DNA from: Candidatus Planktophila sulfonica
GTDB taxonomy: Bacteria; Actinomycetota; Actinomycetes; Nanopelagicales; Nanopelagicaceae
Direction of reading: 5' to 3'
Length of the DNA stretch: 64,000 nucleotides
Assembly: GCF_002288065.1 (NCBI RefSeq)
Contig: NZ_CP016773.1
Location: forward strand, 496,001-560,000
The first letter of the stretch is position 1; every line of letters begins with the position of its first letter. The notes beneath the pieces are model-generated. The model saw only the letters and a list, made by a program, of their open reading frames with translations, was not told the DNA's origin and ran no database searches. Both the position numbers and the translations under genes were made by a program. Shown here piece after piece: positions 16,582-26,311 of the stretch.

Positions 16582-16610
16582 TGTATAACTTTAGCGAATA
16601 CGAGCAGCAA
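16582..16610 (-). promoter_or_regulatory. Promoter of the riboswitch-pnuT-kinase operon
   Basis: Minus strand: -35 TTGCTG (16605-16610), a 17-base spacer, and -10 TATACA (16582-16587). The predicted start, about 7 bases on, falls at the first base pairs of the TPP aptamer. The -35 lies inside the last codons of crtB, so the operon has its own promoter rather than depending on crtE-crtI-crtB read-through. Confidence 0.75.
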
Positions 16611-17469
16611 TTGCCTGAATGTAGGCAGCTCCTGCAACGCGTGCGCGGCGAGCAGTTGAAGTCTTTGCTCGCTTATTGAAGATGTCATAGCCAATTGCTT
16701 CGACTTCATCGACGATTCCGCAATACAACTCGCTCGCTGCACGAATACAGGGACGAGATTCCTTATCCAAGTAAGCAATCCCGATATCGGCTTCTCGCTG
16801 TAATTGACGAACGCGAGCGATTTGGAACTTCAGCGCAGCAGTGATTTCAGGGGTTAAGACGCGACGTTCCAACATGGCGCGATCTACTCCGAATTGAGCA
16901 AGCTCTTGAAGAGGTAAATACACGCGACCACGATCGAGATCCTCGTTCACGTCGCGAATAAAGTTGGCGAGCTGGAAGGCGATACCTAACTTCTTCGCGG
17001 CCTCGTATGCGCGCTCATCTGAGTAACCCAAAATTGGGACCATCTCAAGACCGATGACAGCAGCAGAACCGTAGACATACTCAAGAAGATCTTCATATCT
17101 CTGATATTCGGTGACGGTTAAATCCATCTCCATGGAGTGCAAGAAATCAACAAAGTATTGGTGGGGGATATCAAACTTACGAGCGGTATCAACGAGTGCG
17201 CGACCTATGTGATCGGTACTTGTACCCGACTTAAGGTCTGCAAGAACTCCGCTGCTCCAAGAACGCAACGCTTCAGCTTTCTCTGTTGGAGAAAGAGTGG
17301 AAGCTAGATCATCAACGATTTCATCGGCATAGCGAGCAAAACCGTAGAGAGCATGTACGTATGGACGCTTATTCTTGGGAAGAAGCAGGGTTGCTAAGTA
17401 GTAAGTCTTGCCATGCAACGAGTTAAGTCGTTTGCACTCTTCATAACTTGCTGCAAGAGCTTGATCCAT
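16591..17469 (-). CDS. crtB: Phytoene synthase
   Basis: Joins two geranylgeranyl diphosphates to phytoene, the first committed carotenoid. The 292-residue protein has both aspartate-rich diphosphate-binding motifs: YADEIVDDLA near residue 47 and NFIRDVNEDLDRGRVYLP near residue 168. ALYGFARYADEIVDD and ARVRQLQREADIGI are typical of bacterial CrtB. Its ATG directly abuts the crtI stop with no gap, and it is third in the crtE-crtI-crtB operon. A separate promoter for the thiamine-type operon lies across its 3' end. Confidence 0.96.
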   Translation of the reverse strand: MDQALAASYEECKRLNSLHGKTYYLATLLLPKNKRPYVHALYGFARYADEIVDDLASTLSPTEKAEALRSWSSGVLADLKSGTSTDHIGRALVDTARKFDIPHQYFVDFLHSMEMDLTVTEYQRYEDLLEYVYGSAAVIGLEMVPILGYSDERAYEAAKKLGIAFQLANFIRDVNEDLDRGRVYLPLQELAQFGVDRAMLERRVLTPEITAALKFQIARVRQLQREADIGIAYLDKESRPCIRAASELYCGIVDEVEAIGYDIFNKRAKTSTARRARVAGAAYIQAIAARIR

Positions 17470-18954
17470 TTACTTAACCGGACCCACAATTCGTTCAGCT
17501 GCCAAACGTCCTGAGATAAGAACCATTGGAACGCCAACGCCTGGTTGAGTTCCGCTACCTGCGAAGACAACATTTTCAAATCCAGCTGCCATATTGCGTG
17601 GTCTAAATGGACCTGTCTGGAAGAAGGTATGTGCGCTAGCAAATGGTGCACCGCGCTCCATTCCTTGTGCCTGCCAATCAAGGGGAGTAGTCATAACTTC
17701 TGTTTCGATGGCATCGCCAAAACCTGTATATCCACGGTCTTCAAGAGTCTGAATCATCTGATCGCGATAAGGCTTTGCCTGCTTGGTCCAATCGATATCT
17801 GCATCCAAGTTAGGTGTTGGGTACAAGATGTAATAAGACTGCTTTCCGGCAGGTGCAAGAGATGGATCGTCATGAGTTGGCACAGTCACCAACACAGAAG
17901 GATCTGTCATTAGAACCTTCTTATTGATGAGTTCGTCAAAGACGCCATCCCAAGATTCGCCGAAGTGAATATTGTGGTGAGCAATATGGTCATACTTCTT
18001 AGATGAACCAACGAGCAGAGTTGCACATGATGGTGAGTAGTTAAGACGCTTGATATTAAGTGGTGTCTTACCTAGCAAGTCACGCCATACAACTGGCAAA
18101 TCTGGGTTCATCACAACGACATCGCACTCAATGCGTTCGCCGGTATTTGTTGTGACAGCCTTGACGCGACCGTTCTGCTTATCAAGGCCAGTAACGGTTG
18201 TGTTGTACTTAAATTCAACGCCGTGCTTCTGAGCAGCAGCGGCTAGAGCGCGTGGAACTGCATGCATTCCGCCCTTAGGGAAGAAGACACCGTTTACTGA
18301 ATCCATATAGGCAATGACTGCATAAATTGCCAAGGCTTGCTGTGGGCTAACGCCGGCATACATAGCCTGGAATGAGTAAACCTTCTGAAGACGTGGGTCC
18401 TTGAGGTACTGATTGACCTTTGGCTGTAAATGTCTGAAACCACCGAGAGCAATGAGGCGAGCCAAGTTAGGAGTCAGAAGATTAAGCGGTGAATCGATGT
18501 TCTTATCGATGAAGTCATGCATCTCGTACTTGTAAAGCTTGGTGACGAAATCTACGTATCGGCGGTAACCCAAAGCTTCTTCAGGTGAAACCTTCTCGCG
18601 GATCTCTTCTTCCATCTGCGCAGTATTTGCATGGACATCAATCTGAGATCCATCTGCGTAGAAAGCGCGATACAGAGGTGAAAGAGGCATGAGTTCAAGC
18701 CAATCCTTCATATCTTCACCCACGCAACTAAAGGCATCTTGAATAAGTGAAGGCATTGTTAAAACAGTTGGACCAGTATCGAATGAGTATCCATCCTTAT
18801 TGAGCAGACCATTACGCCCACCAGGTACGGCTTCACGTTCAATCACTGTGACTTTACGGCCAGCACCTGCAAGGCGTAGCGCTGCACTGAGTCCACCCAG
18901 ACCTGCGCCAACTACGACAACGTGATCTGTGGGTCCCTTAACGGTTCTTGTCAT
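17470..18954 (-). CDS. crtI: Phytoene desaturase (CrtI)
   Basis: FAD-dependent desaturase of 494 residues converting phytoene to (neuro)lycopene at the membrane. The N-terminal dinucleotide fold VVVVGAGLGGLSAALRLAGAG and the substrate motif PGGRNGLLNKDGYSFDTGPT are clear. The C-terminus has VVFAGSGTQPGVGVPMVLIS, the bacterial phytoene-desaturase signature. The ATG overlaps the last base of the crtE stop (TAATG), and crtB follows directly. It differs from the second CrtI-like protein at 21514-23034, whose C-terminal motif is GGSAHPGGGLPLV; this one sits with crtE and crtB and is therefore the likely phytoene desaturase. Confidence 0.95.
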   Translation of the reverse strand: MTRTVKGPTDHVVVVGAGLGGLSAALRLAGAGRKVTVIEREAVPGGRNGLLNKDGYSFDTGPTVLTMPSLIQDAFSCVGEDMKDWLELMPLSPLYRAFYADGSQIDVHANTAQMEEEIREKVSPEEALGYRRYVDFVTKLYKYEMHDFIDKNIDSPLNLLTPNLARLIALGGFRHLQPKVNQYLKDPRLQKVYSFQAMYAGVSPQQALAIYAVIAYMDSVNGVFFPKGGMHAVPRALAAAAQKHGVEFKYNTTVTGLDKQNGRVKAVTTNTGERIECDVVVMNPDLPVVWRDLLGKTPLNIKRLNYSPSCATLLVGSSKKYDHIAHHNIHFGESWDGVFDELINKKVLMTDPSVLVTVPTHDDPSLAPAGKQSYYILYPTPNLDADIDWTKQAKPYRDQMIQTLEDRGYTGFGDAIETEVMTTPLDWQAQGMERGAPFASAHTFFQTGPFRPRNMAAGFENVVFAGSGTQPGVGVPMVLISGRLAAERIVGPVK

Positions 18955-20039
18955 TAGTAGCTCCTACGGATTGCGGTCTCAGCGAGAGCTAAGAGAAATG
19001 GACGTGCATTTTCGTTAATCGCTGCAGAATTTGCTGCAGCTACTGATTCTTCACCGAGGCGGTCGATCAATTTTTCTACATCGGCGATTGCGCCGGTATC
19101 CATGATGAGCGCACGAAGTGACTCGATTTTTTCTGCAGAGAGGTCAGGCTTACCAAGATTGGCTGAAAGTTCTGCGCGGGCAGCATCCGTTGCCTTCTCC
19201 ATGGTCATCGCCATCAATACTGTGCGCTTTCCTTCGCGTAAGTCATCTCCTGCAGGCTTGCCCGTAGTTTCAGGATCTCCAAAGATGCCGAGTATGTCAT
19301 CGCGCAATTGGAATGCTTCACCGAGTGGAAGGCCGTATGCAGAAAGTACGTTGAGAAGTTCAGAATGCTCAGTCGCTGATGGACGGGCAATGACCGCACC
19401 TAAATGCAGCGGACGTTCGATTGTGTACTTACCTGACTTGTAACGGGCAATTCGTAGCGAACGTTCGACGCTATGTTCGCGTTCGCCTGCTTCACGAACA
19501 TCGAGGTACTGACCTGCCATTAGTTCGATACGCATTTCATCGTGGATGCGAAGCGCTGCTGTAAGTGATTCATGTGAAAGACCACTGTTGTGAAGCATGT
19601 GATCTGACCAGACAAGTGCGAGATCTCCGAGCAATACAGCAGCTGCTTCGCCAAATTGTTCAGCAAGTCCTGCCATCGAACCTTGGCGATGAAGATTTTC
19701 AAAGTGGCGATGGATCGCTGGCTTTCCGCGACGCGTATCTGATCCATCCATCAAGTCATCATGAATAAGTGCGCATGCTTGCAAGAGTTCCAAGCTCGCC
19801 ATTGCACGAATCTCAGTGCGGCTTGGAGTTGCCCCTGCTGCCATGAAACCTGCATAGGCAAAGAGAGGGCGAAGACGCTTGCCGCCTTCAAGAAGATAAT
19901 CTTCGAGGGCATCACAGACCGGTACTAATTCAGATGCGATGCTGGTGAGATAGTCACGTTGTTCGGCGAGATAGTGAGTAAGTTCGCCTTTCACAGCATC
20001 GCGTACCTCTGATGCGCTCTTCATGACCTCTTTATCCAC
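18954..20039 (-). CDS. crtE: Geranylgeranyl diphosphate synthase (polyprenyl synthetase)
   Basis: Makes the C20 diphosphate precursor for carotenoids. The trans-prenyltransferase motifs are LIHDDLMDGSDTRRG (first aspartate-rich region, with the chain-length region LELLQACA just before it) and FQLRDDILGIFGD (second region). Length is 361 residues. I chose GTG 20039 (product beginning MDKEVMKSASEV) because TACCTT at 20046-20051 lies exactly 6 bases upstream on the minus strand, the leaderless pattern used in this genome; an in-frame ATG five codons later (20024) is the alternative. It leads crtE-crtI-crtB. Adjacent, divergent metF gives the same order as metF/idsA2 in mycobacteria. Product length C20 is inferred from the crt context. 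Confidence 0.94.
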   Translation of the reverse strand: MDKEVMKSASEVRDAVKGELTHYLAEQRDYLTSIASELVPVCDALEDYLLEGGKRLRPLFAYAGFMAAGATPSRTEIRAMASLELLQACALIHDDLMDGSDTRRGKPAIHRHFENLHRQGSMAGLAEQFGEAAAVLLGDLALVWSDHMLHNSGLSHESLTAALRIHDEMRIELMAGQYLDVREAGEREHSVERSLRIARYKSGKYTIERPLHLGAVIARPSATEHSELLNVLSAYGLPLGEAFQLRDDILGIFGDPETTGKPAGDDLREGKRTVLMAMTMEKATDAARAELSANLGKPDLSAEKIESLRALIMDTGAIADVEKLIDRLGEESVAAANSAAINENARPFLLALAETAIRRSY

Positions 20040-20061
20040 GGAGAAAAGGTACCCTGACGCC
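20040..20061. promoter_or_regulatory. Back-to-back crtE/metF promoters with overlapping -10 boxes
   Basis: Only 22 bases separate the two GTG start codons. The minus-strand -10 TACCTT (20046-20051) and the plus-strand -10 TACCCT (20050-20055) share two bases within the palindromic core GGTACC, each exactly 6 bases from its start codon. Both mRNAs should be leaderless, and the two polymerases cannot occupy the site together. Confidence 0.65.
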
Positions 20062-20931
20062 GTGGAGATGCGCAGTGTGAAGAGTGGCCTTACCTACTCA
20101 TTCGAATTCTTCCCACCCAAAGATGTTGAAGGCGAAGAGCGCCTCTGGGCTGCGATGTCGCAGCTTGAATCCATCGCCCCTGATTTCATCTCTGTGACCT
20201 ATGGCGCAGGTGGCTCAACCCGCGACCGCACCATTCGCATCACCTCAGAAATTACCGCTCGTACACATATCCCGACTGTTGCCCACCTAACTTGTGTGGG
20301 TTCTACTCGCGATGAGTTGGTAGATATCTTGAGTAAATATCGCGACGCTGGAATCAAAAGTATTTTGGCACTTCGCGGAGATCCAACTGGTGGACCTCGT
20401 GCACCTTGGAGTGCAACTGAAGGCGGACTCAATCACGCAGATGAGCTGGTAACTCTCGCTGCTGAATTCGGCGGATTTACTATCGGCGTCGCCGCATTTC
20501 CAGATGGGCATCCATCATCTGAAGGAGATATCGATAAAGATGTTCAGGTGTTGCTTGAGAAAGAGAAGCGCGGTGCAACATTTGCAACAACGCAATTCTT
20601 CTTCGATACAGCTAAGTGGAAAATTCTCGTTGATAAGTTAGCTGCAAAGGGCTCAACGCTTCCAATCATTCCCGGCATCTTGCCTGTGACCAATGTCAAG
20701 CAACTTAATCGCATGGCAGAACTCAGTGGCGTGCCAATTCCTTCAGAAATTTCAAGCGCCTTTGCAAAGGTCGAGAGTAATCCAGATGATGTGCGCAAAG
20801 TTGGCGTCGAACTTGCCACCAAACTCTGTCAGGAGTTACTTGAAGCAGGTGCCCCGGGACTTCACTTCTACACAATGAATACCTCATCGGCTACCCGCGA
20901 GATTTACTCGCAGATTAAAGATGAGCGATGA
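20062..20931 (+). CDS. metF: 5,10-methylenetetrahydrofolate reductase
   Basis: FAD enzyme of 289 residues that makes 5-methyltetrahydrofolate for methionine synthesis. The start of the barrel SFEFFPPKDVEGEERLW, the segment PDFISVTYGAGGSTRDRT, and AHLTCVGSTRDEL followed by ILALRGDPTGG are the standard MetF motifs. I chose GTG 20062, preceded by TACCCT with 6 bases between; ATG 20068 is two codons on. An in-frame ATG at 20023 would lie inside crtE and add unrelated residues. Its stop overlaps the start of the CDP-alcohol phosphotransferase gene (ATGA). Confidence 0.96.
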   Translation: MEMRSVKSGLTYSFEFFPPKDVEGEERLWAAMSQLESIAPDFISVTYGAGGSTRDRTIRITSEITARTHIPTVAHLTCVGSTRDELVDILSKYRDAGIKSILALRGDPTGGPRAPWSATEGGLNHADELVTLAAEFGGFTIGVAAFPDGHPSSEGDIDKDVQVLLEKEKRGATFATTQFFFDTAKWKILVDKLAAKGSTLPIIPGILPVTNVKQLNRMAELSGVPIPSEISSAFAKVESNPDDVRKVGVELATKLCQELLEAGAPGLHFYTMNTSSATREIYSQIKDER

Positions 20932-21545
20932 AAGAGCAGCAGTTTAAAGAGCGCTGGAGCGAACTCCATGGTGGCGCGGATACTGAAGGCGTTGTAGGTG
21001 GATGGCTCTCGTTCTCTTATCAAGCAGCGCGTGTTTGTGTAGCTCTTCGCATCACACCTAATCTCTTAACTTTTCTTGGCCTCGGAACAGCGATTGCAAT
21101 GGGGCTTTCTGAGTACGCAGCCATTGCACTCCTTTTGCTTGTCATCTCACTCTTCTTCGATGGTATCGATGGCAGCGTTGCGATTCTTCGTGGCACTGAA
21201 AGCAAATGGGGCGAGCTCCTTGATTCACTCGCCGATCGCATCTCTGAAGCATTCTGGCTTTATATGGGTTGGCGCTTAGGTATTCCTGCTTGGGTCGTCA
21301 TCACCATGTGGACGATTGCATCAACGCAGGAATATGCCCGAGCACGCCTTGCATCACTTGGTCATCGTGAAATCGGTGTTGTGACTCCAACTGAGCGACC
21401 AGTGCGCGCAATCTTTATGGCCTTTGCTTTGATCTTCTACATCTTTGATATTCCAGGAACGGTGCAACTTTCATACGCGTTCTTGGCTCTTCTTACCTTT
21501 AGCTTCTTAAAGGTTATGAAGGTTGCTTCTCTAAAATTGCGTTAG
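20928..21545 (+). CDS. CDP-alcohol phosphatidyltransferase family protein
   Basis: Membrane phospholipid-synthesis enzyme of 205 residues with several transmembrane helices. The family motif D-x2-DG-x2-AR-x8-G-x3-D-x3-D is present as Asp78, Asp81-Gly82, Ala85, Gly95, Asp99 and Asp103, so all four metal/catalytic aspartates are kept, but the Arg after Ala85 is replaced by Ile86. That Arg normally contacts the CDP-lipid. Substrate (glycerol-phosphate, inositol-phosphate or other alcohol) cannot be told. It is coupled to metF by a 4-base overlap, and its 3' end overlaps the convergent crtD-like gene by 32 bases. Confidence 0.88.
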   Translation: MKEQQFKERWSELHGGADTEGVVGGWLSFSYQAARVCVALRITPNLLTFLGLGTAIAMGLSEYAAIALLLLVISLFFDGIDGSVAILRGTESKWGELLDSLADRISEAFWLYMGWRLGIPAWVVITMWTIASTQEYARARLASLGHREIGVVTPTERPVRAIFMAFALIFYIFDIPGTVQLSYAFLALLTFSFLKVMKVASLKLR

Positions 21546-23034
21546 CAACCATCTCTGCGCTGAGGCCCACAAGAGGTAGCCCGCCTCCAGGATGAGCGGA
21601 TCCACCTACTAAGTACAGACCCTTAATTGGTGAGCGGTTCTTCGCGCGAGCAAATGCAGAGCGCGCACCGTTACTTGAAGTTCCATAGATCGAACCACCT
21701 GGTGCATTAACACTTGTCTGTAAATCTAGGGGAGTGCGAATCTCAAGTACTTCTAGGCGATTTCGAATAGCGATTCCCTGTGACTCAATCTGATCGATAA
21801 TCGTATTTGCATACTGGCGCTTGAAGTTTTCATCGCTCCAATCAAAACCATCACCAGTGGTGCTGTGGCGCGGAGCATTTACTAAGACAAACCATGCCTC
21901 ATGACCTTTATCTTTAACCATCAGTGGATCGCGAGGTGCGCAGATATAGATAGTTGGTTTCTCAACCGGGGTCTTACTGGTGAAGATTGCTTCAAATTCA
22001 AGGTCGTAATTTTCAGGGAACAAGATGGTGTGATGTTCAAGTGGCTGCGCATCCGATGGTTTAAGACCAAGTAGGAGCGAGAAACCAGCAAGTGAAGGTT
22101 CTTGTTTTGCCAGTTGCTTACGAATTTTTACAACCTTATTGGTTGGTGCCAATAACTTCTCGTAGACAAATTGCGCATCTGCGTTGGCAACTACGCGATC
22201 AAAGTTCTGCTTATTGCCATGTACTACAACACCTGAAACACGGCCTGATGTGAGGGTAATTTCTTCAACGCGGGCGTTGAGCTGAATATCTACGCCCAGC
22301 TTTTCGCATCTCTCAGTGATCTTTTCAGAGAGTGTGCCAATACCGCCCTTGATATGCCAAGCACCGAACGCTTCTTCGACGAAAGCAATAGTTGATAGAA
22401 CTGCAGGAGCTACGCGAGGGTCAGAGCCGCTATAGGTTGCATAGCGATCCATAATCTTTGCCAGGTTTGGATTAGAAATAGCTAGACCGCGCAGTGATTT
22501 CCACGGTGAAATAGTCTTTAGGTCTCGAATCAATCGCGGGCGCTTGAGTAGAGAAACTGGCGACTTCAGCTCTGACTCAATAAATGGTTCGCGCGAGACA
22601 TCCCACATCGCTTCCGCCTGCAACATCACTCGGTCCCATTCAGCTGCTGCATCTGCGCCAAGAGATTCTTCAATTGAGGCCAGCGTCTTCTTGCGAGATA
22701 AGTTGGCAAACTTCACTGACTTGCCATCGTGGAACCGGTAATCAAAAGATGGATTTACTTCTTCAATTTCAAGAACGCGACCCATGACCTCGCCTGTGCG
22801 CTGGAAGAAATCGCGATAAACAGCCGGCAGAGTCAGAAGTGAAGGACCAGTATCGAATGCGTAGCGGCCAATCCATTCAGTGCGGCACTTACCGCCGGTG
22901 CGATCGGATGCTTCAAAGATTGTGACCTTATGTCCGGCTTTTGCTAAACGAGCTGCTGTGCAGAGTCCGCCGATACCTGCGCCAATAACCGCAATGTTTT
23001 CAACGTTCTTTACTTTTCCCACATGGCCGGTCAT
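21514..23034 (-). CDS. crtD: CrtI-family carotenoid desaturase, probably CrtD-like (3,4-desaturase)
   Basis: FAD protein of 506 residues of the CrtI/CrtD/CrtO superfamily. The N-terminus reads IAVIGAGIGGLCTAARLAKAG and TGGKCRTEWIGRYAFDTGPS; the C-terminus GLYLVGGSAHPGGGLPLVGLS is typical of CrtD-type desaturases that act on hydroxylated carotenoids. Operon position after crtA, cruF and a glycosyltransferase supports a tailoring role, predicted as desaturation at C-3',4' of a 1'-hydroxylated linear end. A ketolase (CrtO-like) or saturase is possible. Start ATG 23034 overlaps the glycosyltransferase stop by 4 bases; an in-frame ATG at 23052 lies inside that gene. Confidence 0.85.
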   Translation of the reverse strand: MTGHVGKVKNVENIAVIGAGIGGLCTAARLAKAGHKVTIFEASDRTGGKCRTEWIGRYAFDTGPSLLTLPAVYRDFFQRTGEVMGRVLEIEEVNPSFDYRFHDGKSVKFANLSRKKTLASIEESLGADAAAEWDRVMLQAEAMWDVSREPFIESELKSPVSLLKRPRLIRDLKTISPWKSLRGLAISNPNLAKIMDRYATYSGSDPRVAPAVLSTIAFVEEAFGAWHIKGGIGTLSEKITERCEKLGVDIQLNARVEEITLTSGRVSGVVVHGNKQNFDRVVANADAQFVYEKLLAPTNKVVKIRKQLAKQEPSLAGFSLLLGLKPSDAQPLEHHTILFPENYDLEFEAIFTSKTPVEKPTIYICAPRDPLMVKDKGHEAWFVLVNAPRHSTTGDGFDWSDENFKRQYANTIIDQIESQGIAIRNRLEVLEIRTPLDLQTSVNAPGGSIYGTSSNGARSAFARAKNRSPIKGLYLVGGSAHPGGGLPLVGLSAEMVANAILEKQPS

Positions 23035-24104
23035 ACGGTGCGACCTTTCCACTGGATAGTTCCGCGTTTAGCCCATGAGTAGATGATGAGATAAATCAAC
23101 AGAGCGCTTGAAAGCGGATGCAAGAATGCGTAAATCGGATTACCGCGCGAACGGATTGCGCTGATTTCGCGAGAGAAAACTATGTAGGCGTAGATAAACC
23201 ATCCGGTGAGATAGCCGTTGAAGATAAGAATGACAGGCAGGATTCCTGTAATAAAGATAAAGGCCACCGCAACGACAGCACCGATACGGCCACCAAAAGC
23301 TTTCCAGAGTGATTTTCCGTAGCCCTGTCGGATCTCATCAAATGATCCATACATGCGAGTGCTTGCTATTGCTGAGCCTTCAGTGACTACGCCCTTAAAA
23401 CCAGCTGCAATCAGAGAACGTGCAAGTTCGATGTCATCAAGGATTTGATTGCTGACTGATGTGAAACCACTGATCTTTTCTAGTGCAGTTGAGCGCACGA
23501 CAAAGAATTGACCATTGGCTACGGCGGTTGAACGACGTGGATATTTCTCAGCGAGGCGAAGAATGACGGTAGCCATCCAAGACCAATGCAGAAGAGGCTG
23601 AATTAACTTTTCAGAGAAAGTCTGCGCAATCTGACGTGGGTATGGTGAGATGAAATCCAGTCTCAGCCTCTCCATCTGTGTAATTGCGCGCATGATTGCA
23701 TTGGGTTCTAGGCGCACATCCGCGTCAAGTGTGATGATGTAATCCGAAGTTGTCGCTTCATAACCTGATTGCAGCGCAGATACTTTTCCAAGCCATCCCG
23801 GGCGAAGCTCGGGGGAGTCAATCACAGTAAATCGTGAATCGCTGCCGATAACAGTTACGAGTAGTTCGGCTGTCTTATCTGTAGATCCATCGTTGATGAT
23901 GATGAACTTGAGCTTCTTGACGCCCATCTGCGAAACCAGCGCCGAAATGAATTCAGGGACATTCTCTGCCTCGTTACGCATCGGAACCAAGACGGTTACA
24001 GCTTTCTTGACCTCTTCGTCCCTTTTAGGAATGCGAATTGTGAAAAAGTTAATGAGCGAGATTGCAAAGATGAGAATTGAAAAAGATAAAAGAAATTGAG
24101 CCAT
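23031..24104 (-). CDS. Family 2 glycosyltransferase, carotenoid-type (CruG/CrtQ-like)
   Basis: Membrane-anchored glycosyltransferase of 357 residues. An N-terminal helix (residues 1-23) is followed by the GT-A fold: VTVLVPMRNEAENV, IIINDGSTDKT, and the DxD-type motif ITLDADVRLEPNA. QILDDIELARSLIAAGF carries the catalytic ED-like acidic pair, and hydrophobic helices follow near the C-terminus. This layout is shared by CruG and CrtQ, which add sugar to hydroxylated linear carotenoids. It sits directly downstream of cruF (6-base gap) and overlaps the crtD-like gene by 4 bases, so the hydroxyl made by CruF is its likely acceptor. The sugar donor is unknown. Confidence 0.85.
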   Translation of the reverse strand: MAQFLLSFSILIFAISLINFFTIRIPKRDEEVKKAVTVLVPMRNEAENVPEFISALVSQMGVKKLKFIIINDGSTDKTAELLVTVIGSDSRFTVIDSPELRPGWLGKVSALQSGYEATTSDYIITLDADVRLEPNAIMRAITQMERLRLDFISPYPRQIAQTFSEKLIQPLLHWSWMATVILRLAEKYPRRSTAVANGQFFVVRSTALEKISGFTSVSNQILDDIELARSLIAAGFKGVVTEGSAIASTRMYGSFDEIRQGYGKSLWKAFGGRIGAVVAVAFIFITGILPVILIFNGYLTGWFIYAYIVFSREISAIRSRGNPIYAFLHPLSSALLIYLIIYSWAKRGTIQWKGRTV

Positions 24105-24110
24105 TACTAA

Positions 24111-24917
24111 TTAATCTTTGTTGCCGAGCCAGCTTGAGAAGAAGTACGGAGTAAGTAGTCCACCCATAATCACTGTGCCGAAGAATGCGAGTCCGGGGCG
24201 ATCGAAGAAGAAGAGGTTGCCGACGAATCCGCCAAAGAGAGTCCAGAGAAGAAGTGCATCAACTGCCGCAAGGGAAGCTGCTTCCTTGCGTCGCTCTTTC
24301 GGTAGAACAAGATTGAGAATTCCGACAATGACTAAACCTGCAAGTAACCAACCAAAGGCATTCGATAGTGGAATATCTGGAGTAAATGGAACGTGCGCGC
24401 CAGTTACTTCCCATGTCCAACGACCAGCGCCGACCATCAGTGGATCGAGGAAGAGATCCCATGCTGCAAGAACTGCGCCTCCGTAGAGAAATACCCAATT
24501 ACCTGCGATACGTCGTGCAGCTAAGAGCGCAGGATGAACCATCATCACCCAAGCAAAAGGAACAACAAGTGGAACTCCGAAGAGTTGTGCGCCAAGGGAT
24601 GAGTCATATTCATAGACTCCAAATGGCCATCCTGTATGAACTCCGAGAACTTCGATTCCTAATCCAAAGAGCGCGGTAATGGGCAGATAGCGAGTCGAAT
24701 ACTTCGCTCCATAAGAGAGGTGTCCATGCACAACCATGGCGAGTGCACCCATATAGATAGTTGCGATAGTGACCAAGCGCAAGGCTTCGCCCTCGATGAG
24801 CGGATATGAAATCTGAAGAAGGATTGTTAAGCCAACAAAGAGAAAGAGAAAGTTTCTTGCCTGAGGAGAAATACCGCCACGACGCCTACGGCGCGGGTTG
24901 TAATGGCGGATTGACAT
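24111..24917 (-). CDS. cruF: Carotenoid 1',2'-hydratase, CruF family
   Basis: Membrane protein of 268 residues with about eight helices. HTGWPFGVYEYDSSLGAQLFG, read as two parts around residues 92-112, then GVPLVVPFAWVMMVHPAL and LAAWDLFLDPLMVGAGRW are hallmarks of CruF, which adds water across the terminal double bond of lycopene-type psi ends to give a 1-hydroxy group. It lies 14 bases after crtA and 6 before the glycosyltransferase. The same enzyme partners CrtD in Deinococcus and CruG in cyanobacteria. It implies that at least one end of the carotenoid stays linear. Confidence 0.93.
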   Translation of the reverse strand: MSIRHYNPRRRRRGGISPQARNFLFLFVGLTILLQISYPLIEGEALRLVTIATIYMGALAMVVHGHLSYGAKYSTRYLPITALFGLGIEVLGVHTGWPFGVYEYDSSLGAQLFGVPLVVPFAWVMMVHPALLAARRIAGNWVFLYGGAVLAAWDLFLDPLMVGAGRWTWEVTGAHVPFTPDIPLSNAFGWLLAGLVIVGILNLVLPKERRKEAASLAAVDALLLWTLFGGFVGNLFFFDRPGLAFFGTVIMGGLLTPYFFSSWLGNKD

Positions 24918-24931
24918 GGTCTAAGTCTGCC

Positions 24932-25630
24932 TTACTTCGCTCTCGTTGCAGAAATCTCACCGCGGAGCTCGAGTACCTCAAAGCGTGCGAAGAGTTCTTC
25001 GCTATACCAACCGATTTCTTCAGTCTGCTTGATGGCGACTTGATGCGCCTGCCCCTTATAGGCAAAATCCCGAAGAGCAGCTGCTGATTTCCAGAGCGAG
25101 AAAGTGCCTTGCAGTCCGATAGGTGCCTCACCGATTCCGATTGCTGTAATCAAACCAGGAGAGTTGTGAAGATCTGTGACCACCGGTGGAACTGCACCCC
25201 AGAAACGAAAGTTTTGATGCCACTTAATTCGCGCACGTGTAATCGCAGCAATCTGCGCATCAGGAGTTGAAAGCGCAGAAGTAAAGTCAAAAGGATTGGT
25301 CTTTGCCCACAAACCATGTGAAGACAAAGGCGAAAGAACTGCGCGAAATTCTGATGTAGATCTCTTGCGCCAGTTGGTCACGATGGAAGATGAATCAAAA
25401 TCAGCCAAACGATTCTGATCGACGACCACAACCATGCCCCATCGAGTCAGGTCAGCATCGCTTGGGGTAAATGTTTTGCCCGTACCCGTTCCCAGAAGCT
25501 TCGAAAATGAAATTCCGGTGAACTTGCGACTGCGCATCCGGTCAATTGCCATGCTGAGAAAGGCGAAGGGGATACTCTTGCGTGCAATAGTAAAGAAGTA
25601 AGCGACGGTGACTTTCTCGGCGCTTTCCAT
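24932..25630 (-). CDS. crtA: Spheroidene monooxygenase family protein (CrtA)
   Basis: Carotenoid C-2 oxygenase family, 232 residues. Diagnostic stretches are AAITRARIKWHQNFRFWGAV, GLITAIGIGEAPIGLQGTFS and GWYSEELFARF, all in the C-terminal half as in purple-bacterial CrtA. CrtA puts a keto group at C-2 of spheroidene; a relative in a marine flavobacterium hydroxylates C-2 in myxol synthesis. Here it leads an operon with cruF, a glycosyltransferase and a crtD-like gene, so it probably oxidises C-2' of the same linear end. The -10 TATCCT lies 6 bases before the ATG, indicating a leaderless mRNA. Keto versus hydroxyl product cannot be decided from sequence. Confidence 0.92.
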   Translation of the reverse strand: MESAEKVTVAYFFTIARKSIPFAFLSMAIDRMRSRKFTGISFSKLLGTGTGKTFTPSDADLTRWGMVVVVDQNRLADFDSSSIVTNWRKRSTSEFRAVLSPLSSHGLWAKTNPFDFTSALSTPDAQIAAITRARIKWHQNFRFWGAVPPVVTDLHNSPGLITAIGIGEAPIGLQGTFSLWKSAAALRDFAYKGQAHQVAIKQTEEIGWYSEELFARFEVLELRGEISATRAK

Positions 25631-25636
25631 AGTAAA

Positions 25637-25642
25637 AGGATA
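25637..25642 (-). promoter_or_regulatory. -10 element of the crtA-cruF operon
   Basis: TATCCT on the minus strand with 6 bases to the crtA ATG. On the plus strand the same bases overlap AAAGGA (25635-25640), which is the Shine-Dalgarno of the divergent aquaporin gene. The two genes are only 15 bases apart. Confidence 0.6.
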
Positions 25643-25645
25643 CCC

Positions 25646-26311
25646 ATGCTGCGCAAGAAGTTATTCGCTGAGTTTCTAGGAACAGCTGTTCTTGTGGCCA
25701 CCGTTGTTGGCTCAGGCATCATGGCAACTAACCTCAGCCCAGACCTTGGCATCGACCTTCTTATCAATACCGTTGCAACAGTCTTCGTTCTCTACATTCT
25801 CATTACTCTCTTAGCCCCAATCAGCAGCGCCCACTTCAACCCATTGGTCAGTGCAATCGCGTTCTTCCGTAAAGAGCTAACAGCAGCTCATGCAATTGCA
25901 TTCTTTGTTGTGCAGATCCTTGGTGGATCACTTGGCGCAATCATCGCCAACCTCATGTTTGAACACCCTGCTATTGATCCTTCGCAGAATGTAAGAGAAG
26001 GAGTCAACCTTCTTCTCGGAGAAGTGGTTGCATCTGCGGGCCTTATCTTCATCATCTTTGTAGCAGTGAAGCAGGGAATAGATAAGAAGATCCCACGCCT
26101 CGTTGCTGCGTGGATCGGCGCTGCCTACTTCTTTACTTCATCCACTTCCTTTGCCAATCCAGCTGTCACGATTGCACGAAGCCTGACTGATTCTTTCTCA
26201 GGCATCAATTTCTCATCAGTTCCTGCATTTATCGGCGCGCAAATCGTAGGCGCAGCCCTTGGTTATGCAGGATTCAAATACCTCACCACTAAAGCAAAGT
26301 CAGGAAAGTAA
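25646..26311 (+). CDS. aqpS: MIP/aquaporin family channel, probable arsenite channel (AqpS-like)
   Basis: Channel protein of 221 residues with six helices and the two half-helix boxes. The first NPA box is changed to NPL (Asn65-Pro66-Leu67 in SAHFNPLVS), and the second is intact (Asn171-Pro172-Ala173), with the selectivity-filter Arg178 kept. It stops exactly where arsC begins, with no spacer. In Sinorhizobium an aquaglyceroporin replaces the ArsB pump next to ArsC, letting arsenite made by the reductase leak out; the same role is inferred here. Without this neighbour it would be a generic glycerol or water channel. AAAGGA 5 bases before the ATG is the ribosome site. Confidence 0.88.
   Translation: MLRKKLFAEFLGTAVLVATVVGSGIMATNLSPDLGIDLLINTVATVFVLYILITLLAPISSAHFNPLVSAIAFFRKELTAAHAIAFFVVQILGGSLGAIIANLMFEHPAIDPSQNVREGVNLLLGEVVASAGLIFIIFVAVKQGIDKKIPRLVAAWIGAAYFFTSSTSFANPAVTIARSLTDSFSGINFSSVPAFIGAQIVGAALGYAGFKYLTTKAKSGK

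Follow-up and report, generated by a model that had tools for sequence, protein, structure and literature searches.

The question raised by this stretch of DNA is which carotenoid is made with the help of four adjacent genes, and what use the cell has for it. The stretch (the window) comprises 64,000 nucleotides (nt), positions 496,001 to 560,000 of contig NZ_CP016773.1 of Candidatus Planktophila sulfonica, and so lies at 496–560 kb of a single-contig genome of 1.34 Mb with a completeness of 99.98%. The four genes, crtA, cruF, a gene for a membrane glycosyltransferase (GT) of family GT2 and crtD, form a real and strongly conserved operon. Their families and their distribution among relatives suggest, with a probability of about 0.6, that this operon tailors a torulene-type carotenoid with a single ring (beta,psi) at its psi end, by adding a sugar at C-1' and oxidising C-2'. 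The product would resemble a deoxymyxol glycoside. Most likely it serves as a general pigment, in the membrane or for photoprotection, and it may also contact actinorhodopsin in the strains that bear a rhodopsin. The operon reads as follows (window positions):

24932..25630, minus strand: crtA, carotenoid C-2 oxygenase (hydroxylase or ketolase), 232 amino acids; NF045923, E 1.9e-44
24111..24917, minus strand: cruF, carotenoid 1',2'-hydratase, 268 amino acids; PF04240 122.3 bits, TIGR03460 106.7 bits
23031..24104, minus strand: GT2 membrane glycosyltransferase, CruG/HpnB-like, probable carotenoid 1'-O-glycosyltransferase, 357 amino acids; PF00535 77.2 bits
21514..23052, minus strand: crtD, 1'-hydroxycarotenoid 3',4'-desaturase (CrtI type), 512 amino acids; NF045637 323.6 bits

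The arrangement is operon-like because crtA and cruF are separated by 14 nt and cruF and the GT2 gene by 6 nt, while the GT2 gene and crtD overlap by 22 nt. An earlier note on this DNA, made from its letters, had placed crtA, cruF, a GT2 gene and a second CrtI-type desaturase in one operon, and the family matches bear out these genes, their order and their coordinates; the interpretation that it drew from them is partly supported, as discussed below. The conservation of the operon was surveyed in 161 genomes of the order Nanopelagicales (called acI here, after the order of the window genome in the genome collection), our own and 160 others, of which 105 are high-quality. Statements on whole genomes refer to profile searches for protein families. 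crtA was found in 148 of the 161 genomes (98/105 high-quality), the CruF family in 155 (105/105), CrtYc/CrtYd-type lycopene cyclase (CrtYcd) in 153 (102/105), type-1 rhodopsin in 133 (84/105) and blh in 75 (50/105). The 14 control genomes gave no match for the crtA, rhodopsin and blh families, and 3 each for CrtYcd and CruF. Forty loci were fetched, half from rhodopsin-less genomes (those with no PF01036 match) and half from rhodopsin-bearing ones. crtA is present in 37 of them, and since the order crtA-cruF-GT-crtD is kept in 35 of these 37, it is not a product of chance. In L051, one of the 35, crtD runs off the contig end; the contig of L029 stops after the GT gene, and in L058 (genome G129) a lone crtA (1600-2241) stands away from cruF, between MFS-transporter-like and permease-like genes. 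Further down, crtI and crtB are separated in L023 and L026 by an inserted permease-like gene, accompanied in L026 by a deaminase-like gene (named by eye).

The genes for the early steps of carotenoid synthesis, crtE, crtI and crtB, lie beyond two genes that are inserted on the opposite strand and are outside the pathway:

20928..21545, plus strand: CDP-alcohol phosphatidyltransferase, convergent with crtD; family match and synteny
20023..20931, plus strand: MTHFR-type gene between the two carotenoid blocks; family match and synteny
18954..20039, minus strand: crtE, geranylgeranyl diphosphate synthase type; PF00348 179.2 bits
17470..18954, minus strand: crtI, phytoene desaturase; TIGR02734 531.2 bits, above its cut-off
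16591..17469, minus strand: crtB, phytoene synthase; PF00494 233.7 bits

The inserted pair (window 20023-21545) is also found between crtD and crtE, on the opposite strand, in many of the fetched relatives. On the other side of the operon, crtA and an aquaporin-like gene are divergent, with starts 15 bp apart (window 25630-25646), and a scan of 25300-26000 gave no sigma-70-like site.

In the pathway that we propose, CrtE, CrtB and CrtI would lead to lycopene, one end of which would be closed into a beta ring by a CrtYc/CrtYd-type cyclase encoded elsewhere, beside blh. CruF would add water at C-1', CrtD would introduce the 3',4' double bond, CrtA would oxidise C-2' and the GT2 would place a sugar on the 1'-hydroxyl, although only the gene families, the synteny and the presence of the cyclase-type genes, blh and rhodopsin are observed; we infer the order in which these enzymes take their substrates, the hydroxy or keto state of the product, the position and identity of its sugar, and its function. 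The expected product is a deoxymyxol-type glycoside with an unsubstituted ring which, if the sugar is a hexose, would have the formula C46H66O7 (730.48) or C46H64O7 (728.47), both calculated by hand. The prediction is well-founded and has a close tested precedent: CruF, CrtY, CrtD and CrtA-OH of Nonlabens together produce deoxymyxol in Escherichia coli (PMC11855829). The chemistry of the psi end that the earlier note had deduced (1'-glycosyloxy, 2'-oxidised, 3',4'-didehydro) is supported.

Whether the other end carries a ring depends on the cyclase. The earlier note had seen no lycopene cyclase in the window and had expected a monocyclic product should one exist elsewhere. The absence holds for the CrtYcd type, in a search that did not cover the CrtY and CrtL types. 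Both CrtYcd matches of the genome are at 367 kb, where two adjacent CrtYc/CrtYd-type genes are divergent from blh (368 kb, above the cut-off in two libraries). This position, beside blh and far from the operon, would suit a cyclase that serves retinal synthesis only, with the operon acting on acyclic lycopene to give a linear glycosylated xanthophyll, and CruF-type enzymes do accept lycopene, the Nonlabens enzyme alone yielding hydroxy- and dihydroxylycopene (PMC11855829). We nevertheless regard an acyclic product as unlikely. CrtYcd is kept in 17 of the 18 genomes that have crtA but neither rhodopsin nor blh (13/13 high-quality), and retention of a beta ring in genomes devoid of Blh speaks for a tailored product with one ring. 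Of the fetched loci, 32 extend as far as crtB, and 22 of these have a CrtYcd pair just after it, on the opposite strand and within the crt cluster; our own genome has no pair at that place. Furthermore, CrtYcd is missing in 4/13 crtA-less versus 4/148 crtA-bearing genomes (Fisher p 0.0015, relatedness ignored). Finally, CrtY and CruF of Nonlabens yield mainly the monocyclic 1'-hydroxy-gamma-carotene (PMC11855829), and the genes listed for the monocyclic flexixanthin of Algoriphagus include cruF, crtD and crtYcd (PMC10784355). The term linear, applied to the carotenoid in the earlier note, is therefore apt for the psi end and not for the whole molecule, which the comparison suggests is monocyclic. 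Some genomes have four CrtYcd matches that form two pairs; in G060, G121 and G148, one pair is near blh and another is on the crtA contig, about 8-9 kb from crtA.

The identities of the tailoring enzymes are of unequal precision. CruF belongs to the PF04240 family (122.3 bits for a cut-off of 25 bits) and stays below the cut-off of TIGR03460, the equivalog model of the bisanhydrobacterioruberin hydratase CruF (106.7 for 154.7 bits). The crtD product scores higher with the CrtD model NF045637 (323.6 bits, equivalog cut-off 580 bits not reached) than with the CrtI-family model TIGR02734 (309.4), as expected of a CrtD. For the GT2, in which the D127-A-D129 motif is conserved in at least 38 of 39 sequences, the best NCBIfam scores are those of CruG (131.3 bits, for an equivalog cut-off of 600 bits) and HpnB (122.5 bits), both far below cut-off. 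These two scores are close to each other, and the nine matches in the PDB, polyprenyl-phosphate enzymes and others of family GT2, include none that is named as a carotenoid enzyme; the protein could accordingly be an HpnB-like enzyme acting on a lipid, in which case the pathway would stop at the free 2'-oxidised carotenoid. The genetic context makes this improbable: the gene is between cruF and crtD in 35/37 crtA loci, it is retained in two crtA-less clusters, and a GT2 gene accompanies cruF, crtD and crtA in other Actinomycetota. This last point comes from a scan of named genomes with the CrtA alignment that confirmed 593 loci, the best 80 of which were taken together with two plasmid-collection records, so that the cassette is at least as widespread as these loci show; 18 of these 82 loci, all from Actinomycetota, hold the four families together within the stretch that was fetched.

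For a GT2 that acts on the carotenoid, as we favour, the comparison of loci points to the 1'-hydroxyl rather than the 2'-hydroxyl as the glycosylated position. Genomes G006 and G080 have no crtA, yet they keep cruF, the GT gene, crtD and CrtYcd, with an alpha/beta hydrolase gene (named by eye) adjoining cruF in place of crtA. A glycosyltransferase in need of the 2'-hydroxyl made by CrtA should not persist in these genomes, which makes 1'-O more likely. An alpha/beta hydrolase gene also adjoins cruF in a third crtA-less genome, G043 (L036:7214-8017), where cruF and crtE are the sole genes of the set left at the locus. The G043 locus is devoid of crtA, GT, crtD, crtI, crtB and the CrtYcd pair, and its CruF might serve another use.

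The oxidation at C-2' is attributed to CrtA, which matches NF045923 (spheroidene monooxygenase) with 151.7 bits over residues 7-225 of 232. This places it in the CrtA family, below the 300-bit cut-off of the Rhodobacter-type equivalog, which is reached in 0/161 genomes of the order. The family search gave no Pfam match for CrtA, and the sequence search of the PDB no relative (a single row, E 0.79). Its predicted model (pLDDT 91.2) is nearest in VIA-align to aldoxime dehydratase 3a17_A (Z 14.4, root-mean-square deviation 3.9 over 221 residues), the best row other than aldoxime dehydratase being at Z 9.0; Foldseek puts putative monooxygenases and an anthrone oxidase-like protein in the top ranks, with a deviation near 16. 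Aldoxime dehydratase is a heme-binding enzyme. The predicted fold of CrtA is thus compatible with that of a heme oxygenase, a shared fold not being a demonstration of function, and the invariant H196 is a candidate heme-binding residue (17 of the 49 CrtA rows were left out, and three more for the structural work). In a quick tree of 122 rows, 38 of them acI and neither Nonlabens nor Rhodobacter CrtA among them, acI CrtA proteins form a single clade (SH-aLRT 96), which groups with Geodermatophilaceae/Frankia (100). We had considered a Rhodobacter-like origin of crtA and dropped it in view of this placement of the 38 acI rows.

CrtA might be a ketolase rather than a hydroxylase, a variant of the same pathway that would lead to a 2'-keto glycoside with a longer and redder chromophore. 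Spheroidene monooxygenase is the sole NCBIfam match of CrtA, and the Rubrivivax CrtA makes ketones through two hydroxylations and loss of water (PMC2889829). However, the CrtA of Bacteroidota is a hydroxylase (PMC2889829, PMC11855829), and in the quick tree the two Rhodobacterales sequences fall outside the group that the acI clade forms with Geodermatophilaceae/Frankia. The choice between hydroxyl and ketone cannot be made from sequence alone, and we consider the ketone quite possible, at somewhat less than even odds.

The beta ring is predicted to be unsubstituted. The families PF04116 and PF00487, which we take to be those of CrtZ, CrtR and CrtW, had no match in our genome or in 12 further genomes of the genus, a number of them incomplete. 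The family search of our genome gave no P450 either, and none of its four PF01593 members is a candidate for CrtO: two are CrtI and CrtD, a third was named by eye as GltD-like, and the fourth is a protein of 407 amino acids. The genome thus combines the psi-end genes of the myxol pathway (cruF, crtD, crtA) with a lycopene cyclase, and gave no match for a CrtZ/CrtR-type ring 3-hydroxylase, nor for a CrtW/CrtO-type enzyme for a 4-keto ring as in salinixanthin. The earlier note had equated the predicted end with that of myxol glycosides and salinixanthin. As complete molecules these call for CrtZ (PMC11855829) and a 4-keto ring (PMC12308411), respectively, and the equivalence does not hold as stated, with no CrtW/CrtR-, CrtZ-, CrtO- or P450-type gene found. 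Ring enzymes outside known families may exist. The 407-amino-acid protein (G000:C1:786203-787294; L016:1492-2715) is an FAD protein from the amine-oxidase family that reaches none of the NCBIfam cut-offs shown; it is a possible carotenoid or lipid enzyme of a new sort.

The last question is whether the pigment serves a rhodopsin. The genome has one type-1 rhodopsin match, at 237.5 kb, and with it all the genes that the earlier note had proposed to look for: crtYcd, blh and a glycine-fenestrated rhodopsin. This rhodopsin is of the DTE type: its pump and retinal positions are occupied by D, T, E and K, and position 156 in the numbering of xanthorhodopsin (XR) is a Gly. In an alignment with 20 others, hand-picked among the 132 other rhodopsin-bearing genomes, Gly-156, Thr-160 and Tyr-207 (XR numbers) are present in 21/21. 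According to a review, actinorhodopsins contain the glycine, and the route to retinal and carotenoids in acI is elucidated (PMC9728251). In 61 of the 161 genomes a type-1 rhodopsin is present with no blh match.

These residues would suit the reading of the earlier note, in which the product is mainly a light antenna of actinorhodopsin, stretched along the protein with its ring at the glycine opening and its energy passed to retinal, a function compatible with the structure proposed above. Indeed, the IMCC13023 actinorhodopsin bound the carotenoid of its host (Ka 2.7e4 per M) with an increase in the initial pumping rate; there was, however, no significant rise in total pH change, and with salinixanthin the rate fell (PMC8113403). 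In addition, crtA is absent in 7/28 rhodopsin-less versus 6/133 rhodopsin-bearing genomes (Fisher p 0.0019, relatedness ignored). The seven belong to genera g2 (six) and g15 (one), three having been checked by locus, and in G068 cruF begins 231 bases from the contig end, so that crtA may be missing from the assembly only. Five of the six rhodopsin-bearing ones lack CruF too and have a completeness below 90%; in G062, cruF begins 285 bases from the contig end. Against the antenna, crtA is kept in 15 of the 21 high-quality rhodopsin-less genomes, which belong to five genera. Furthermore, the described antennas of XR, GR and Kin4B8 carry ring oxygens, those of XR and GR being 4-keto carotenoids, and no known ring-modifying family was found here. 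Kin4B8 does not bind beta-carotene and binds 3-hydroxy rings best, 4-keto carotenoids being bound with less transfer; the 3-hydroxyl is held by Ser208 and Tyr209 of transmembrane helix 6, and the S208A change lowers zeaxanthin binding to 2% (PMC12308411). The corresponding positions are non-polar in 21/21 acI rhodopsins, as they are in XR and GR. The binding rules of Kin4B8 need not apply to actinorhodopsins, and an antenna role is possible and unproven; that it is the main role we find unlikely, and light harvesting is probably not the main function of the pigment. Antenna as the only role is contradicted by the many relatives without type-1 rhodopsin that keep the operon. A third antenna chemistry can be imagined, in which a pocket devoid of the polar residues that hold a 3-hydroxyl matches a pigment with an unsubstituted beta ring, made in a genome that lacks known ring-modifying enzymes and anchored by its glycosylated, 2'-oxidised psi end, the same pigment being a photoprotectant in rhodopsin-less strains. 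We find it doubtful; if true, it would mean an unsubstituted-ring antenna in a group that is among the most abundant bacteria of fresh water.

Several points weigh against a monocyclic glycoside with a general function. All four array proteins miss the NCBIfam equivalog cut-offs, so that the gene identities are family assignments and not proven orthologues, and the cyclase genes beside blh could, as mentioned, serve retinal alone. The 1'-O argument is based on two genomes of one genus, and the third genome, G043, lacks the GT gene as well. crtA-less loci were fetched only from rhodopsin-less genomes, genus g2 accounts for all three losses whose locus was inspected (G006, G043, G080), and rhodopsin-less means that there was no PF01036 match, heliorhodopsin being outside the search. 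Lastly, the unequal absence of crtA hints at a link with rhodopsin. In spite of these points, we favour the tailored monocyclic carotenoid as a general pigment: the gene survey supplies a concrete structure to seek and argues against an antenna-only role, and as both rhodopsin and crtA are present in some genomes and absent from others, the antenna idea can be probed.

Comparison with known systems places this operon among several partial relatives. The myxol 2'-fucoside branch of cyanobacteria uses CruF and CruG. CruF and a CruG-like GT2 are common to that branch and to our operon, but the CruG model is named for a 2'-O-glycosyltransferase and our protein, at 131.3 bits for a cut-off of 600, more likely acts at 1'-O. 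Salinixanthin, the xanthorhodopsin antenna of Salinibacter ruber, is monocyclic, with a 1'-glycosyl, 2'-oxidised, 3',4'-didehydro end. The end predicted here is alike, and both genomes have a glycine-fenestrated rhodopsin. Salinixanthin for its part has an acylated sugar. Its ring is 4-keto (PMC12308411), and no CrtW/CrtO-type ketolase was found here. In Nonlabens (PMC11855829), as predicted for our operon, CruF, CrtD and CrtA act on a carotenoid with one ring, at its psi end; our system differs by its CrtYcd-type cyclase genes, its added glycosyltransferase and the lack of a match for a CrtZ-type (PF04116) gene. Such pathways are described as being without biochemical characterisation except for two cleavage enzymes (PMC11577799). 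We found no description of the four-gene array in acI in the literature searched, outside which lies Dwulit-Smith et al. 2018 (AEM 84:e01678-18), and we claim no priority. Among other actinobacteria, the 18 four-family loci (of the 82 described above) include Nonomuraea, Streptosporangium, Actinomadura and Patulibacter, while in 54/82 loci, mostly Bacteroidota, crtA alone was detected at that sensitivity. In Nonomuraea, Streptosporangium, Actinomadura and other Actinomycetota the same four families are near crtB and crtI, but in another gene order and with CrtYcd-type genes detected nearby in just two loci (L095, L124). The 18 loci therefore make the module one of a broader actinobacterial kind, with other gene orders. 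Within acI, Dwulit-Smith et al. 2018 reportedly described for every clade a secondary branch that points to a complex carotenoid, probably the same branch in the same lineage; to it the present work adds the four-gene array, its spread in genomes without rhodopsin or blh, the retention of the cyclase and the comparison of the rhodopsin pocket.

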